Assembly: GCA_015660965.1 (NCBI GenBank)
Contig: JACTVG010000008.1
Location: 1-64,000, forward strand
DNA from: Methanoregulaceae archaeon
GTDB lineage: Archaea > Halobacteriota > Methanomicrobia > Methanomicrobiales > Methanospirillaceae
Length of the DNA stretch: 64,000 nucleotides
Reading direction: 5' to 3'
The notes under the pieces are model-generated. The model saw only the letters and a list, made by a program, of their open reading frames with translations, did no database searches and was not told the origin of the DNA. A program made the translations under genes and the position numbers. Positions 3,872 through 63,971 of the stretch are shown piece by piece. The first letter of the stretch is position 1; each line of letters opens with the position of its first letter.

Positions 3872-3963
3872 CGTTCTGTTGCATCTGCGGGACGTTTAAA
3901 TACTGGATATTGAAGTGTTCCGAGGATATCATTTCCATTGAGTCCCGTTAACTTATCAGAACC
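3872..3963. repeat. MITE-like element A (92 bp), IS6-type ends
   Basis: The left end GTTCTGTTGCATCTGCGGGAC and the right end, read on the other strand as GGTTCTGATAAGTTAACGGG, are imperfect inverted repeats like the termini of IS6-family elements. No transposase is inside. The core (about 3884-3925) matches the reverse complement of 44729-44777, and both copies are 92 bp long. No clear 8-bp target duplication flanks it. The remaining bases to 4070 hold no convincing gene; on the minus strand they can be read as a short zinc-ribbon-like scrap (WCPDCSCVIHRRKKR). Confidence 0.65.
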
Positions 3964-18315: not shown

Positions 18316-21300
18316 TTAATAAAAATTATTCAAATTTACATAACCTTGCTCGATTAAAGCTATTTCATCATCTGCTAAATCATAAATTCTATAGATTTCT
18401 CTATTAATTTTTAACTTCAATGACTGAATTGATTCTGTCATTGCTTTTTGAACTCTCTCACTCAAATCAGAATTTTTTAATTTATTTTTTAATTTCTCAA
18501 TCTCATCATATAATTCTTTGAAAAGTTGATTATTTACTGGAATGGAGGGAAGAGGGATTTTTCCAACATAATAATTGTCAAAATCCATGCCTCGAATGGC
18601 ATCAGAAAATATGAAGTGATATGCATACCATGATACGAAATTTGAATTAAATAAGCATGCGATAAATTCTAATGAAAAATTTTCATTATCGATTAAAAAT
18701 GTATTTTCTACTGTATCTACGGATAATACACCCCTTTTGTCAACAACAGACATTATTTTTAGGTGGTAATAAGGTTGGGTGATATGAGCAACAATTCTTT
18801 GAGATAATATTTTGGATTTTTGCAAAGCAATTATTTTATCATTTTCTGTATCTTTCAATTCGTCTGATAAAAATTCACTTGAATCCTCTAGACAATATTG
18901 GTGGATGTGAGCTCCCCTATAAACAGGAAAATTAGATGGTTTTTGGATAATCGCACTTTGTAATGGCAATCCACGTGTCGTATTTGACACGGATTTTAAA
19001 AATAATTGGGGTTTATTTATTTTTTCAAAGATCTTCAAACTTTTACCAATAGGATGTAAAAGAATTGTATCCGTTAATTCAATATACGATTTATCCATTT
19101 CATTAGTATCGGGATTTTTAATTGATTTTATACAATATTTATCAGAAAACGAGCTATTTTTTAATATTATAATTACTTGTTCAAGTTTAACATCTTTAAA
19201 CGCTTCACTAACGTCTGCGATTGCTCTTAAATTATCTTTGATTAATTCTCTTCCAACTATCCATTTTTGACTAAAGGTTAGTGCTTTAGGAACAATAAGA
19301 CCGATATAACCCCCATTTTTTGATAAAAATGTTGCTTTCTCTATAAATGCAAGTTCAGATCTAACAAATCTTTTAGTACTTGCTAATGTTTCATCAATAA
19401 AAATCCGTTCTTCATCACTAATTTTGATACCATAAGGAGGATTCCCAATTATTATATCAAAACCCCCATTGTCGATAACTTCAGAAAAGTCAATGTTCCA
19501 ATGAAAAGGGGTTATTAATTTGATTTTTTCCGATAATTCGTTCGGTTTACCGTGCTTTTCTCGAAATTTTTCATTAATATTATAATAAAATGACGGGGAG
19601 ACCATTGAATAAATTGAATCCCTTATAATATCAAGGATATATTTTATTTTAACAGCTTTACTACCTTCTTCCATTTTGTATAATGTTTTTAAAATCGAAT
19701 ATGCTTTTTTAAGATTTGATATATAATTTTTATTGTAAGTCGTTATCAACTCCTTACTTTCTAAAAATAATTCCTTTTTTCTAATGTCATCATGATATAC
19801 AATATCAAGTGTTGAAAAAATAATTTCAATATTTTTGTCGATTGGAGAATCTACTGAATCTTGAGTTATTTCTTCTTTTAACCAACCAACTAAACTATTT
19901 CCACAAATTATATTATAATCAATATTAGGTAATGTATCAATTTGGTTGGTGTTGGATACATCTAAATCTTCAATAAGACTTAGCCATAATCGAAGTTTTG
20001 CAATTTCAACTGCTGAGCTTTCTACATCAACACCAAATAAGTTATTCGTGATTATCGATTTTTTAATATGATATAAATCGTGATTTTGGTTACATAATTC
20101 CAACAATTTTGTTTTGATATAAATGAGTTGTTTCAAAGCAGAGGTTAAAAAATGACCACTACCACATGCTGGATCTAAAATTTTGATTTTATCAATTTCA
20201 TAATAGATTTTTTGAAGGATTAATTCTCTTTTAGGTGGATCTGCAAAAAAATCATCTATTGTTACATAGTGCTCAATTTCACTTTGTTTATACTTTTCTT
20301 GGGATAATACGTCTTTAATTCTTTCTAAAACTGATGAATCAATAGTGTTTCTACAAATGAATGTTGTGATAGCATCTGGAGTATAATATGCCCCTTTTGC
20401 TTTTCTGAGATTATTTTCCCCAGAACCGGTTAAATAATTAATAGTTTTTTCAAAAACATAACCTAAAATATCTGGATTTAAAGAGTTCCTACCTCCATTC
20501 AATGTGAAAGAATACCGTTTTAATATTTCATTTATTATCAATTCAAGAATTTCATTATCTACATCACATTCTTTTTCTCGGTCAATAATATCTCTAAATA
20601 ATCCCCCATTTAAATAAGGAATATTTCTGAAAAGATTTATTGATTTAATTTGTGATTTACGCTCATTTGGCTCAGTATTTAAAACATCATAAAAAAGATG
20701 TTGTAATTTCGATTTGTAAAATGTGTCCATTGGATTTTTTGTGGTTTTGTACTCGTTAAATAATGAAGATATTAAATCTTGATTCTCTAAAATTCTATCT
20801 TCTAAAAATTTTATAAATATTAACCTGTTCATTATGGTAATAGCAAATAACCTTTTTTGGTTTTCATTGAACCCTAATGGAAAAGATATAGAATCTAATA
20901 AACATTGATATTTTTTATTACCTTTTTTATCAAAACCAAAAACAAGTTTAATGTAATCGTCATAGAATTTTCTCGTTATTGTTTCTTTTTCAATTATTAA
21001 ACAATTTGACAAATAGTCAATTGAATCTAATATTGTCTTTTTTCCAAACGTACGATAAAATTCTTCAATTGTTTGAACAAAATCATCATTAATTTGTTCC
21101 TGTCCAGCATATTTTTTAAAAATTGGACTGAGATCAATTTTTTTAATGATATCGAAAGAAAAAGATTCTGAATTATATTTGATTAATACCCATTCAAAAC
21201 CATTTGTTGTAATGCCCAAATCTGAGTCAAAAGATTTTTTATTAAGATAATTCTCTAACTGATTGATTCCACATCCTTTACCAGTTAAATCTTTATTCAG

Positions 21301-21651
21301 AGGCTCTGCTTCAAAAAGGATTTTTTTATTTCTTACAAAAATTGAATAATCGGCTTCTTTTTGATCGCTTTTATCTGGTGAACATGTACTTTTAATATAA
21401 TCGTCTTTTTCAAAGTCTAAAAATTTGAAAAATCGTAATATCACGTTTTCTATTGTAAAATCTTCGGGACTTTCAAATAATCCTGTATCTTGTGTTTTTA
21501 AAATAGTTCCATTAATTATATTTTTAAAAACAATCTTATCTTTAGTTTTTTTCTGCAAATCTTTGAATATCTTTTTAGTACATAAATTGAATTGATTAAT
21601 TTTTTCTTGCGAAATTCTTTCTTCAATTTGTTTAAATTTTAACTGAACCAT
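18316..21651 (-). CDS. Type IIG restriction-modification enzyme (Eco57I-like methylase fused to nuclease-like domain)
   Basis: A 1111-residue single-chain enzyme. The N-terminal domain (about residues 60-200) resembles HsdR_N-type nuclease domains (DYSIFVRNKKILFEAEPLNK ... GITTNGFEWVLI), but the usual ExK is E-A-E. The middle holds an N6-adenine methylase: the conserved KGAYYTPDAITTFI box, motif I ILDPACGSGHFLTSAL and motif IV IIIGNPPYG. The C-terminal third should be the target-recognition domain. It is 29 bases downstream of the Mrr gene, same strand. Very AT-rich, so likely acquired. Confidence 0.88.
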   Translation of the reverse strand: MVQLKFKQIEERISQEKINQFNLCTKKIFKDLQKKTKDKIVFKNIINGTILKTQDTGLFESPEDFTIENVILRFFKFLDFEKDDYIKSTCSPDKSDQKEADYSIFVRNKKILFEAEPLNKDLTGKGCGINQLENYLNKKSFDSDLGITTNGFEWVLIKYNSESFSFDIIKKIDLSPIFKKYAGQEQINDDFVQTIEEFYRTFGKKTILDSIDYLSNCLIIEKETITRKFYDDYIKLVFGFDKKGNKKYQCLLDSISFPLGFNENQKRLFAITIMNRLIFIKFLEDRILENQDLISSLFNEYKTTKNPMDTFYKSKLQHLFYDVLNTEPNERKSQIKSINLFRNIPYLNGGLFRDIIDREKECDVDNEILELIINEILKRYSFTLNGGRNSLNPDILGYVFEKTINYLTGSGENNLRKAKGAYYTPDAITTFICRNTIDSSVLERIKDVLSQEKYKQSEIEHYVTIDDFFADPPKRELILQKIYYEIDKIKILDPACGSGHFLTSALKQLIYIKTKLLELCNQNHDLYHIKKSIITNNLFGVDVESSAVEIAKLRLWLSLIEDLDVSNTNQIDTLPNIDYNIICGNSLVGWLKEEITQDSVDSPIDKNIEIIFSTLDIVYHDDIRKKELFLESKELITTYNKNYISNLKKAYSILKTLYKMEEGSKAVKIKYILDIIRDSIYSMVSPSFYYNINEKFREKHGKPNELSEKIKLITPFHWNIDFSEVIDNGGFDIIIGNPPYGIKISDEERIFIDETLASTKRFVRSELAFIEKATFLSKNGGYIGLIVPKALTFSQKWIVGRELIKDNLRAIADVSEAFKDVKLEQVIIILKNSSFSDKYCIKSIKNPDTNEMDKSYIELTDTILLHPIGKSLKIFEKINKPQLFLKSVSNTTRGLPLQSAIIQKPSNFPVYRGAHIHQYCLEDSSEFLSDELKDTENDKIIALQKSKILSQRIVAHITQPYYHLKIMSVVDKRGVLSVDTVENTFLIDNENFSLEFIACLFNSNFVSWYAYHFIFSDAIRGMDFDNYYVGKIPLPSIPVNNQLFKELYDEIEKLKNKLKNSDLSERVQKAMTESIQSLKLKINREIYRIYDLADDEIALIEQGYVNLNNFY

Positions 21652-44697: not shown

Positions 44698-44789
44698 AGT
44701 GCTGTTGCATTTGTGTATTTCAAGGGGATTAATCATCTCGGAACACTTCAATGTCGAATAGTTAAACGTCCCGCAGACGCTCTGTAACC
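44698..44789. repeat. MITE-like element F (92 bp), relative of element A
   Basis: Reverse complement of element A without gaps: the same 92-base length, with about 36 of 41 central bases matching (around CTGCGGGACGTTTAA and TTGAAGTGTTCCGAG). Its ends (AGTGCTGTTGC, CTGTAACC) are more decayed. The surrounding 44441-44820 gap also has a TATA-like ATTTTATATAC near 44533 and a small hairpin ATGGAATTTATTCCAT near 44634, possibly a short RNA, unproven. Confidence 0.6.
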
Positions 44790-44820
44790 TGCTCTAAAAA
44801 CCTACATATCAATAAAAAGT

Positions 44821-45639
44821 TTAACCAATCTTAAACGAGGTCATAGTTATGGAACCAGCGATAGCTTTATCGTTGAAATAGGTAAGGGCCTCGTTCTCAT
44901 GTTTTAGAGCAATGGCATACAGCATCGGCAAATAGTGTTCTGGTGTTGGGATCGCCAACTGGACAGCGTGACCAAGACGCTTGTAATCGGCAAGCTCGTT
45001 GAACCTACCTTCGTCAATCAACGTTTTGAACAGTGCACTTGCCTCCAGTGCCCAATCGAACCCAAACGGGGTATTGAAATCATCATTCTGCAACGCAACC
45101 ATACCCAGGTTGTGGACCATGTTCCCGCTACCAACAATGAGTACGCCCTTCTCTCGCAGCGGTGTCAGCTCTTTTGCAATGGTCAAGTGATAGGGACTTG
45201 GCTTCGTATAATCCAGACTCAACTGGACTACCGGGATATCGGCATCGGGATACATCCTTTTGAGCACGATCCAGCACCCGTGATCCAACCCCCATCCAGT
45301 ATCAAGACCGACAGCTACGTTGGTAAGAGCATTCTTGGTCTCGTGCACCAGCCACGAACTTCCCCGTGCCGGGTACTGCACCGTGTATAACTCTCGGGGG
45401 AACCCGTAAAAATCATAAATGGTTCGGGGGTTCTCCATGGCCGTGACAAACGTTCCATTCGTTACCCAGTGTGCGGAAATGCACAGTATCGCCGTTGGCT
45501 TCGGTAACGTCTTGGCAACGGCTTGCCAACCTAAAGAAAATTCATTTTTTTCAACGCCATTCATCGGACTCCCGTGCCCGACAAACAGTACCGGCATCCG
45601 TCGTTCAGGAACTGAATTTTTCTGCGGTATAGATATCAC
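44821..45639 (-). CDS. LigB-type extradiol dioxygenase (YgiD/DODA-like)
   Basis: A 272-residue non-heme metal enzyme of the class III extradiol family. Metal-ligand histidines are visible in VLFVGHGSPMNG, CISAHWVTNG and GNMVHNLGM, with IPTPEHYLPML near the end. The frame is open to 45948, but upstream codons overlap the divergent gene and its promoter. GTG 45639 fits the family N-terminus (SVPERRMPVLF); ATG 45597 is possible. A TATA-like TTAAATAG lies about 40 bases before it. Methanogens lack an obvious aromatic substrate route and oxygen, so a non-oxygenase role is possible. Its 5' end recurs at 61.5 and 62.3 kb. Confidence 0.88.
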   Translation of the reverse strand: MISIPQKNSVPERRMPVLFVGHGSPMNGVEKNEFSLGWQAVAKTLPKPTAILCISAHWVTNGTFVTAMENPRTIYDFYGFPRELYTVQYPARGSSWLVHETKNALTNVAVGLDTGWGLDHGCWIVLKRMYPDADIPVVQLSLDYTKPSPYHLTIAKELTPLREKGVLIVGSGNMVHNLGMVALQNDDFNTPFGFDWALEASALFKTLIDEGRFNELADYKRLGHAVQLAIPTPEHYLPMLYAIALKHENEALTYFNDKAIAGSITMTSFKIG

Positions 45640-45754
45640 CCCTATAGTGAGGATTATCGAAAGTCTCAAACCAATACTATTTAATGTCCTGAAAATATCT
45701 TTCCATTGGTATCCGATATTTGCGTATATCTTATAGATACCGGGAGATGTAGTA

Positions 45755-60830: not shown

Positions 60831-60889
60831 AATGCTGCAGTATAGGTATCGTTCCTATGGTAACTCGTTGCAACCTTTCCTTACACTGA

Positions 60890-61450
60890 TCATTCGATCA
60901 ATACCATACCAAACCGGTTTACTTTGGGGGACTTTTCTGCCATTATCTCTTCATAGTCTTTTTTCAATACCTGGATAGAAAACCCATTGTTCCTTACGGT
61001 GGTGAAAACATCTATCCCGCAAGACTCCATCGAAGGACGTGCATCCCCGGGATACACACACTGTCCTTTTGCACATTGTTCGCATAGCAAACAGGGACCT
61101 TCTCCAAGCGCGAACGCTTTGTAATATCCCGCGAAAAACAGCTCTTTCTCCAGTGTGACAGCAATTTCTGTCGGATGAGTTTTACTCTGGAAGCCCTTTT
61201 TATAATGGATCAGCAACGCATTTTCGTAGCACTTTATCACTTCCCTGGTCTCCAGATAATTAGGGCTGTTCGGCGGGCAACAGAGGCTGGAACCATACAT
61301 ATCACAGCCATAGTGGCATTTCCAGCGAACCCAGGCAGCGGTGACGATGCTATCCGTTTTAATGATCTTGGCATCGTCAGCACCGAGCTTCTTCGCACGA
61401 TCTATGAATTTCCCATATTTTTCCATAACAATTCTCTTCATACTTTCCAT
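60890..61450 (-). CDS. DUF2284 metal-binding protein
   Basis: A 186-residue Cys-rich protein: RWKCHYGCDMYGSSLCCPPN and GPCLLCEQCAKGQCVYPGDA, with MESCGIDVF, are the DUF2284 landmarks, probably an Fe-S cluster or metal site. The start ATG 61450 is chosen (GGATCA upstream). Convergent with the NapH-like gene. Function unknown. Confidence 0.88.
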   Translation of the reverse strand: MESMKRIVMEKYGKFIDRAKKLGADDAKIIKTDSIVTAAWVRWKCHYGCDMYGSSLCCPPNSPNYLETREVIKCYENALLIHYKKGFQSKTHPTEIAVTLEKELFFAGYYKAFALGEGPCLLCEQCAKGQCVYPGDARPSMESCGIDVFTTVRNNGFSIQVLKKDYEEIMAEKSPKVNRFGMVLIE

Positions 61451-61543
61451 TATGATCCAGGTAAAAAATAGATTATTTCTTCTGATTTTGGGATGACCAG
61501 CGTTGGCGATTTCCCATCCCGGTTGCAAGGTTCGGGTTCTGAA

Positions 61544-61632
61544 TCTTGCAGCGGTTTAGGTATCGCTCCCATGGTGCTCTTAGAGATTACCTAAACTATC
61601 GTTGTATTCTGTTATGATTATAGTGATTCAAT
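61544..61632 (-). repeat. LigB dioxygenase gene 5' end, remnant copy 1
   Basis: Direct repeat of 62335-62429; 71 bases (61562-61632) differ at one position. On the minus strand it is the promoter and first codons of a gene like the dioxygenase at 44821-45639, cut after about 10 codons. It forms the left border of the toxin-antitoxin segment. Confidence 0.75.
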
Positions 61633-61717
61633 GATTTTTTGTCCGTTGGTAACTTCATCCCCGCATCACCATGCATACACCAGTAGCCTGATAAGATCAT
61701 CAGTACTACTTGTATAT

Positions 61718-61948
61718 ATGGAGACCATTCCCATCAGGATCCGGAAAGAGACCAAAGACGGGCTCATGAAATTCCGGGTGCACCCGCGTGAGACCTATGA
61801 TGAAGTCATTGCCCGCCTCATGTCCTCCCAGACCGACCAGGATCCCATCAGCGAAGACACCCTCAAGGCGATTGAGGACGGTCTCTCTGACATCCGAAAG
61901 AAGAAGACTCGTGAGCTCAACGAATTCTGCGATGATCATGTGATCTGA
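61718..61948 (+). CDS. Antitoxin of a RelE-type pair
   Basis: A 76-residue protein with N-terminal strand METIPIRIRKETKDGLMKFR, then a long helical tail, like the DUF7557/RHH-type antitoxins of archaea. Its stop codon touches the toxin start (61948/61949), so the two are coupled. It likely binds DNA and represses the operon. Confidence 0.75.
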   Translation: METIPIRIRKETKDGLMKFRVHPRETYDEVIARLMSSQTDQDPISEDTLKAIEDGLSDIRKKKTRELNEFCDDHVI

Positions 61949-62218
61949 ATGTATACGGTCCATCTTACACGACGGGCACAGAAAGATCTCCTTGATCTCC
62001 CAAAGACACAGGCACACCGTATCCGCACAGCCTTAAACGATCTCGCCCAGGAGACTGAACCGTGGCTGCTCGTAAAAAAACTCCAGGGCCATGAAGAAGT
62101 CCCGCTTTATTCCTGCCGGGTCGGCCAGTACCGGATTATCCTGACCATCGATCACGGACATCTCGTAATCTTCGTCATTACGATCGAGCACCGCCGTTCC
62201 GTGTACCGTCATATTTAG
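61949..62218 (+). CDS. RelE/ParE family toxin
   Basis: An 89-residue toxin that probably cleaves mRNA on the ribosome. YTVHLTRRAQKDLLDLPKTQ, VKKLQGHEEVPLYSCRVGQY and RIILTIDHGHLVIFVITIEH are the RelE landmarks; the C-terminal HRRSVYRHI supplies the usual basic residues. Directly follows the antitoxin. Confidence 0.88.
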   Translation: MYTVHLTRRAQKDLLDLPKTQAHRIRTALNDLAQETEPWLLVKKLQGHEEVPLYSCRVGQYRIILTIDHGHLVIFVITIEHRRSVYRHI

Positions 62219-62305
62219 GCCGGAAACCGTTATGCTGCAATCGCCCGTGCAATCATGTCAACAGTTCCATCCGTTTTAATCGCATACTTGGAATAATATA
62301 CCCGA

Positions 62306-62429
62306 TAAACAGTACCGGCATCCGTTGTTCAGGAACTGAATCTTGCTTTTGTATAGAAATCGCTCCCATCGTGCTCTTAGAGATTACCTAAACTATCGTT
62401 GTATTCTGTTATGATTATAGTGATTCAAT
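62306..62429 (-). pseudogene. LigB dioxygenase gene 5' end, remnant copy 2
   Basis: On the minus strand this reads ISIQKQDSVPEQRMPVLFIG, matching SIPQKNSVPERRMPVLFVG of the intact gene at 45.6 kb, plus its upstream region shared with 61562-61632. The gene body is missing. It forms the right border of the toxin-antitoxin segment. Confidence 0.75.
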
Positions 62430-62450
62430 AATATTCTCTGCTACTAAAAA

Positions 62451-62475
62451 CTACTAATTTGTGCTAGATTAGTAG
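62451..62475. promoter_or_regulatory. Inverted repeat 1 upstream of fic
   Basis: CTACTAAT and ATTAGTAG flank a 9-base spacer containing TGTGC. Same 8-9-8 geometry as the next two sites, with different arms. Confidence 0.45.
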
Positions 62476-62537
62476 TTCGTCCAAAAGGAAATGAAATCGT
62501 GAATTGATAAAATTTCTTCACTGCCATCACAAATTTT

Positions 62538-62562
62538 CTGTAAATTGTGCAAAAATTTACAG
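62538..62562. promoter_or_regulatory. Inverted repeat 2 upstream of fic
   Basis: CTGTAAAT, spacer TGTGCAAAA, ATTTACAG; identical to the site at 62594, whose start lies 56 bases downstream. A probable operator for a dimeric regulator. Confidence 0.65.
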
Positions 62563-62593
62563 TACTTTTATCATGATTGCGATCTAACAGATT

Positions 62594-62618
62594 CTGTAAA
62601 TTGTGCAAAAATTTACAG
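62594..62618. promoter_or_regulatory. Inverted repeat 3 upstream of fic
   Basis: Exact copy of the 62538 site, ending 18 bases before ATG 62637. Binding here would block expression; the Fic protein has its own C-terminal winged helix and may be the regulator. Confidence 0.7.
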
Positions 62619-62636: not shown

Positions 62637-63971
62637 ATGAAGATTCCACAACGTCCACCTGATGGAAAAACGGCATGGGACGAGCATCAGAATGAGATAA
62701 ATGATTTGTTGAACGCATATTATAATACACTTCCCGAAGGATCGAAAGATATCCGGGAACTGGTACGAAAATATAACGATACCGAATATATCCATTGGGA
62801 TGAACTAAGGCGAAAAAAACTCCCGCGTGATCCAGTACTCATTTGGACAATCCTGAAAATTCTCAGGGAGAACGACTATATCAAGTTAGAGATAGGTAAA
62901 GTACTTTTCTTTTATATCGTCCTCCGCAAGTTTTTAAAACAGCTCCACCTCATCGACAAGGCATCACCTGCCTCGCTGGATCGGTTGCTTGACGGGTCTT
63001 TGGCAGTTGTGAATCGACAGCAATACCTCATCAGTTCGCTGATGGAAGAGGCGATCGCATCCAGTCAACTTGAAGGTGCGGCAACAACCCGTCAGATTGC
63101 TAAAAAGATTTTACGTGAAGGAAAAAAACCGAGGACTCACTCAGAACGGATGATCGTGAACAACTACCGGACTATCAACATGGTACGGGAGAAAAAAGAT
63201 CTTTCACTTACCCCAGATCTAATCCTTGAAATTCACCGTGAGATCACGCTGGGCACCCTTGAGGATGAAATGGATGAAAACCAGTTCCGCACCACCGATG
63301 ATATCGTTGTACGGGATAAAAGAGATCCCACGCTGATTTATTATCACCCACCGAAAGCGGCAGAGATCCCTGCGATGATCGAAGGGCTCTGCACTTTTGC
63401 CAATAGTGACGATGAATTCATTCACCCGATCCTAAAAGCGATCATTATTCATTTTCTCATCGGGTATATCCATCCATTTAATGACGGAAACGGGAGAACC
63501 GCACGAGCTCTCTTTTATTGGTATGTATTGAAAAACCGATACGATCTCTTCGAGTACTTGTCCATATCGAGAATTTTCGTGAATGCTCCTGCAAAGTATA
63601 CACAAGCGTACCTGTTGACGGAAACCGATTTCAACGATATGACCTATTTCATTGATTTCAATATCGGAATTATCAGCAGGGCAATGGATGATCTTAAACA
63701 GTATATTGAACGCAAGCAGCGCGAACAGAGAGAATCAATTAAAATTGTCGATCAGATACCAGATCTCTCATTCAGGCAAGCGGAGATCCTCAAGGATATT
63801 ATAAAACATCCGGATCGACCCTATAGCGTCGGTGAAATTGCCGGAAAATATAAAGTCTCTTTGCAGACAGCAAGATCTGATTTGCTTTTCCTCGAACAAA
63901 TCGGAAAAGTCAGAAAATTCAAAATGGGAAAGGGATATGCATTTATCAAAAAAAGAGATGAGGCGCATTGA
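62637..63971 (+). CDS. Fic family protein with C-terminal winged helix
   Basis: A 444-residue AMP-transferase (or related). The Fic core is HPFNDGNGRTARALFYW (H279 to R287), and SSQLEGAATT (S142 to E146-G147) is the N-terminal inhibitory motif that blocks ATP until displaced. The last 70 residues (FRQAEILKDIIKHPDRPYSV then GKYKVSLQTARSDLLFLEQI) form a winged helix, so it probably binds the repeated inverted sites upstream. It may modify a target protein or repress itself. GAGGGG precedes the ATG. Confidence 0.9.
   Translation: MKIPQRPPDGKTAWDEHQNEINDLLNAYYNTLPEGSKDIRELVRKYNDTEYIHWDELRRKKLPRDPVLIWTILKILRENDYIKLEIGKVLFFYIVLRKFLKQLHLIDKASPASLDRLLDGSLAVVNRQQYLISSLMEEAIASSQLEGAATTRQIAKKILREGKKPRTHSERMIVNNYRTINMVREKKDLSLTPDLILEIHREITLGTLEDEMDENQFRTTDDIVVRDKRDPTLIYYHPPKAAEIPAMIEGLCTFANSDDEFIHPILKAIIIHFLIGYIHPFNDGNGRTARALFYWYVLKNRYDLFEYLSISRIFVNAPAKYTQAYLLTETDFNDMTYFIDFNIGIISRAMDDLKQYIERKQREQRESIKIVDQIPDLSFRQAEILKDIIKHPDRPYSVGEIAGKYKVSLQTARSDLLFLEQIGKVRKFKMGKGYAFIKKRDEAH

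Follow-up and report, generated by a model that had tools for sequence, protein, structure and literature searches.

Results

An intact toxin–antitoxin pair between two gene starts

The window, the whole 64,000-nucleotide stretch of DNA analyzed here, contains a toxin–antitoxin (TA) pair on the plus strand that is bracketed by two copies of a direct repeat. Read on the minus strand, both copies run into codons resembling the start of ligB, a LigB-family dioxygenase gene, and an intact ligB gene lies elsewhere in the window. The features that bear on the locus are as follows.

60833–60861, minus strand: further relic of a ligB start
60890–61450, minus strand: DUF2284 gene, 186 aa, downstream of repeat copy 1 (PF10050, 143.5 bits)
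61450–61572, minus strand: 40-codon ORF that opens at the ligB-like start of copy 1 and ends in a stop sharing one base with the DUF2284 start (TAATG)
61562–61632, minus strand: repeat copy 1, about 60 nt of upstream region followed by ATGGGAGCGAT, with an ATG at 61572
61663–62245, plus strand: segment homologous to the hsdR–hsdM interval of type I restriction–modification (R-M) loci (82–83% DNA identity)
61718–61948, plus strand: antitoxin, 76 aa, DUF7557 (PF24434, 28.4 bits; cut-off, 25)
61949–62218, plus strand: toxin, 89 aa, RelE/ParE superfamily (PF05016, 42.6 bits; cut-off, 23)
62234–62245, minus strand: trace of an hsdR 3′ end
62301–62369, minus strand: ligB 5′ coding relic of copy 2, 23 codons, cut off at about 62301
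62359–62429, minus strand: repeat copy 2, same sequence as copy 1, with an ATG at 62369
44821–45597, minus strand: intact ligB of the DOPA-extradiol-dioxygenase type (NF007914, 281.6 bits; cut-off, 233)

The antitoxin gene lies directly upstream of the toxin gene in the same operon, with the junction TGAATG. Its small size and position, together with a toxin score above the family-model cut-off, assign the pair to the RelE/ParE type II systems, although the toxin scores below the cut-off of the curated NCBIfam model RelE_StbE (21.8 versus 27.9). The toxin also matches PDB entry 3g5o (Rv2866) with E = 2e-8. Both ORFs are intact. The host is very probably a methanogen of the order Methanomicrobiales, to which GTDB assigns genomes classed in its family. 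Comparison with relatives gave dN values of 0.06–0.07 and dS values of 0.87–0.90 for the antitoxin and dN values of 0.08–0.10 and dS values of 0.6–1.5 for the toxin; the resulting dN/dS of about 0.05–0.17 indicates purifying selection on the pair. Judged from its sequence, the pair probably still functions as a type II system, in which the predicted toxin would act as a RelE-like ribosome-dependent mRNA nuclease and be neutralized by the antitoxin. It is not derived from ligB.

Geometry and distribution of the repeat

The initial annotation described a 71-bp direct repeat with one mismatch around a RelE module, and we confirmed this arrangement. The two copies agree at 70 of 71 positions, are spaced 797 nt apart, and bracket the intact TA pair; the single mismatch falls at 61573, next to 59 identical nucleotides (61574–61632). 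A looser repeat spans 109 nt (61530–61638 and 62327–62435) at 88% identity with E = 2e-35, which excludes a chance origin. Both copies end in ATGGGAGCGAT on the minus strand, and beyond the 71 bp, where both carry ligB-like codons, the homology between them drops to about 68%. In these codons, 12 of the 38 nt next to the repeat are mismatched, compared with 1 of 71 within the repeat (Fisher p = 8e-6). The near identity is limited to the upstream part and 11 coding nucleotides.

The genome is a 2.43-Mb draft of 170 contigs with an estimated contamination of 3.61%. It holds three copies of the repeat, namely the two in the window and one on another contig (C157:21640–21725, 87–88%), in which 4 of 48 upstream positions differ from both window copies. 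All three share an identical 23-nt core, and a search allowing up to three mismatches located it nowhere else. No match to the 71-bp repeat was found in 148 related genomes, none to its exact 20-nt core in GTDB species genomes or IMG/VR, and none to the surrounding 0.9 kb among phages or plasmids.

Three element types were considered for the repeat and rejected. A MITE or insertion sequence does not fit, as the inverted repeats listed for the region include no terminal ones and the copies end at different places. For an RNA element, Rfam returned only one sub-threshold match, to mir-19, which is attributable to chance; the 109-nt repeat has no unusual fold on either strand (z of −1.2 to +1.0). 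A regulon motif was discarded because the 23-nt core is confined to the three known copies.

Relics of the ligB start

The minus-strand translation of copy 2, MGAISIQKQDSVPEQRMPVLFIG, aligns with that of the ligB gene, IGVISIPQKNSVPERRMPVLFVG, and the DNA is 84% identical over 73 nt (62301–62373 versus 45577–45649, E = 2e-17). Copy 1 reads MGAIPKPLQDSEPEP and retains about 14 ligB-like codons before it diverges; with 10 of 36 positions mismatched to ligB, its resemblance is weaker than that of copy 2 but clear. We assign the stretch at the relic starts to ligB because the ligB of relative L052 (68% identical) opens with a similar stretch, RVIPQNDSFDREKMPVLFVGHG. No complete ligB coding region with the catalytic domain is present at the repeats, where the relics stop after 23 and about 14 codons.

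The only full ligB copy in the genome is the one at 45.6 kb, whose homology to the relics reaches 45649 and which carries ATA where the relics have ATG. It has its first codons in common with them but not the upstream sequence (35 of 48 positions mismatched). Thus, the earlier description of the repeats as the promoter and first codons of a gene like this dioxygenase holds for the codons, whereas the upstream part is absent from the intact gene.

The further relic at 60833–60861 matches copy 1 at 24 of 29 positions and begins 3 nt past the stop codon of a convergent Fer4_5 gene. None of 2000 first-order shuffles of a 1-kb sequence reached this score, and matches to copy 1 elsewhere in the window reach at most 18 of 29. 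Contig C157 carries a ligB 3′ end (26 codons), a dispersed repeat, and a ligB start arranged head to tail, as would be expected of a former tandem. At two relics, no more than 3 nt separate the relic start from the stop codon of a convergent gene (60830 and L004:4642), as if deletions had stopped at a gene that needed to be retained. Genome-wide, there are four or five relics of the ligB start, which bears out the view that the TA module is framed by LigB gene 5′ ends.

The dispersed repeat is a separate, MITE-like sequence of about 80–95 bp with about ten intergenic copies, several of which are bounded by imperfectly inverted termini (GTTCTGTTGC.. / ..GCAACAGAAC). The intact ligB is closely followed by one copy, and another adjoins the ligB relic of C157.

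Window: 3881–3962; 44738–44820
Contig C157: 16205–16282; 21759–21840; 23962–24042; 27684–27723; 49890–49971
Other contigs: C105:64724–64793; C154:173714–173795; C156:7379–7458

Genes next to the repeats

The neighboring genes encode alpha-acetolactate decarboxylase, Fer4_5, DUF2284, and Fic proteins, and there is no recombinase or transposase among the genes neighboring the repeats. For the DUF2284 neighborhood, the best relatives are only about 44% identical, so its ancestral arrangement is unreadable. Copy 1 may now serve as promoter and leader of the DUF2284 gene. No gene follows copy 2 on its strand; if this copy is active, its transcription would run antisense to the toxin.

An inverted repeat (62448–62474, ACTACTAAT / ATTAGTAGT) lies in the interval that separates repeat copy 2 from fic. 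The palindrome CTGTAAATTGTGCAAAAATTTACAG occurs twice, with 56 bp in between (62515–62618), just upstream of the gene for a Fic protein that carries an HTH domain (62637–63971); the two copies are likely operators for fic autoregulation.

Type I R-M loci around the pair in relatives

The segment that holds the TA pair matches two relatives over its full length (L024 and L025) and a third over 61663–62214 (L023), at 82–83% DNA identity. In L024, L025, and L026, a type I R-M locus holds the same pair, placed antisense between its hsdR and hsdM genes. The genes beside it in relatives are hsdR (EcoEI_R_C and ResIII) and hsdM/hsdS, and these flank the pair in L025 and L081 but not in the window. 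The R-M locus is intact in L025 and L024 and near-intact in L026; stops and fragments of R-M genes surround an intact TA pair in L080 and L029, and in L027 the R-M genes are reduced to an hsdR tail of 27 aa and a tail of hsdS.

Of the hsdR 3′ end, the window itself retains a trace of 12 nt, GGCGATTGCAGC (codons of ..AIAA), identical to L024 and L025 at the homologous place. Past this trace, no hsdR codons are recognizable in the window, and 55 unassigned nt separate it from the ligB relic at 62301. A type I hsdM is absent from the genome, in which the best N6_Mtase match scores 24.9 bits, compared with 201 for the hsdM of L081. Taken together, the graded decay among relatives, the hsdR remnant, and the missing hsdM indicate that the TA pair is probably the survivor of a lost type I R-M locus, now an orphan among ligB relics. 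The initial annotation did not recognize this origin. Addiction may have allowed the pair to outlast its locus.

The window also contains a large ORF (18316–21651, 1111 aa) with weak N6-methyltransferase matches, which possibly belongs to another restriction or BREX-like system.

Discussion

Homogenized relics as the probable source of the near identity

We favor a scheme, to which we assign a probability of about 0.6, in which an orphan TA pair from an R-M locus came to lie among decayed ligB starts that were made alike by gene conversion or local duplication. The pair would first have stood antisense between hsdR and hsdM, and the R-M genes would then have been lost while the pair and its own upstream region were kept. 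The ligB family would have undergone several duplications followed by decay, so that starts accompanied by their upstream region persist at three sites and the one intact gene lacks that region. Finally, the near identity over 71 bp would most likely have come about by gene conversion, or by a recent local duplication, involving two relics of the same orientation that lie 0.8 kb from each other. No relative has the same neighborhood as the window, so both this order of events and the role of conversion are inferred rather than observed.

The abrupt jump in divergence suggests that the promoter part was converted or recently duplicated. The initial annotation took the near identity as a sign of a recent event; this holds for the upstream part and 11 coding nucleotides, to which the identity is confined, but the mismatches in the adjoining codons are harder to reconcile with one fresh insertion than with older relics that were homogenized or with a duplication at a later time. 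Conversion between two older relics is most likely the simplest account.

Alternatively, a single event could account for both pair and repeat: insertion of the TA pair, driven by template switching or microhomology, could have duplicated 71 bp of one ligB start, so that the repeat is its scar. The near identity of the copies agrees with such an event, as do the boundaries, with no more than 31 nt between the end of copy 1 and the beginning of the TA homology and with copy 2 lying on the other side. We nevertheless consider it unlikely, since the ligB-like codons at about 68% homology past the 71 bp indicate that two diverged ligB starts predate the near identity, and the relic at 60833 provides a further start similar to copy 1.

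Recombination would be superfluous if the upstream parts were functional promoters held alike by selection. The path from copy 1 through the 40-codon ORF into DUF2284, with its TAATG overlap, would suit such a role, and so would a core that is shared by all three copies and absent elsewhere. However, neither copy 2 nor the C157 copy is followed by a gene on its own strand, and complete constraint across 59 consecutive bases would be unusual in a promoter, which makes selection alone an improbable explanation.

We regard as very unlikely that the repeats are active recombination sites and that the TA pair, perhaps with DUF2284, is a cassette excised between co-oriented ligB starts. Three co-oriented relics (62344, 61547, and 60833; spacings of 797 and 714) do separate two single-function modules, and homologous recombination could make use of the 59 identical bases. 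Yet the third relic comprises only 29 nt, the repeat is confined to one genome among those searched, the C157 copy has no adjacent cassette, and the neighboring genes include no recombinase. The suggestion that the process may still be active finds no support: the neighboring genes are not recombinases, the C157 copy occurs elsewhere without a TA pair, and no empty or variant site was found in the 148 relatives, IMG/VR, GTDB, phages, or plasmids. It is equally hard to credit that the ligB-start repeat marks a boundary at which single-function modules such as the TA pair and DUF2284 are swapped or lost by recombination. Were that so, co-oriented repeats would make the region a small array of a cassette-like kind, and what endures and is copied would be the promoter with the first codons rather than the gene. 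An assembly artifact, conceivable in a draft of 170 contigs with 3.61% estimated contamination, can be practically dismissed, as the repeat is shorter than ordinary reads and its copies differ in their flanks and at one position and lie inside one 71.7-kb contig.

Significance and relation to known systems

The locus offers modest, testable points on genome decay and is not a new system. Gene starts with their upstream sequence outlast gene bodies here, and a neighbor possibly reuses them. The relatives L024, L025, L026, L080, L027, and L029 form a graded series that could test whether TA pairs outlive defense loci, and it bears on whether addiction lets them do so.

The locus is an orphan TA pair with duplicated gene relics, both of known kinds. 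Like other RelE/ParE type II pairs (archaeal aRelE, 1wmi; Mycobacterium tuberculosis Rv2866, 3g5o), the pair has the antitoxin–toxin order, a toxin that belongs to the fold family by sequence, and intact ORFs under purifying selection; it differs in its DUF7557 antitoxin and its RelE_StbE score under the cut-off. TA genes tied to type I R-M (HsdRMS) loci are known, for example PIN-GNAT-EVE proteins (PMC7641849) and the TA systems of the immigration control region (PMC12707154). The pair resembles these in belonging to an R-M locus, as in L024–L026, but there it stands antisense between hsdR and hsdM, and the window keeps it alone. We found no published description of this antisense arrangement in a search that mostly lay outside the subscription literature. 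As in gene relics homogenized by conversion, the near-identical tract ends abruptly inside a longer diverged homology, with the difference that here the tract consists mainly of the upstream region and first codons.
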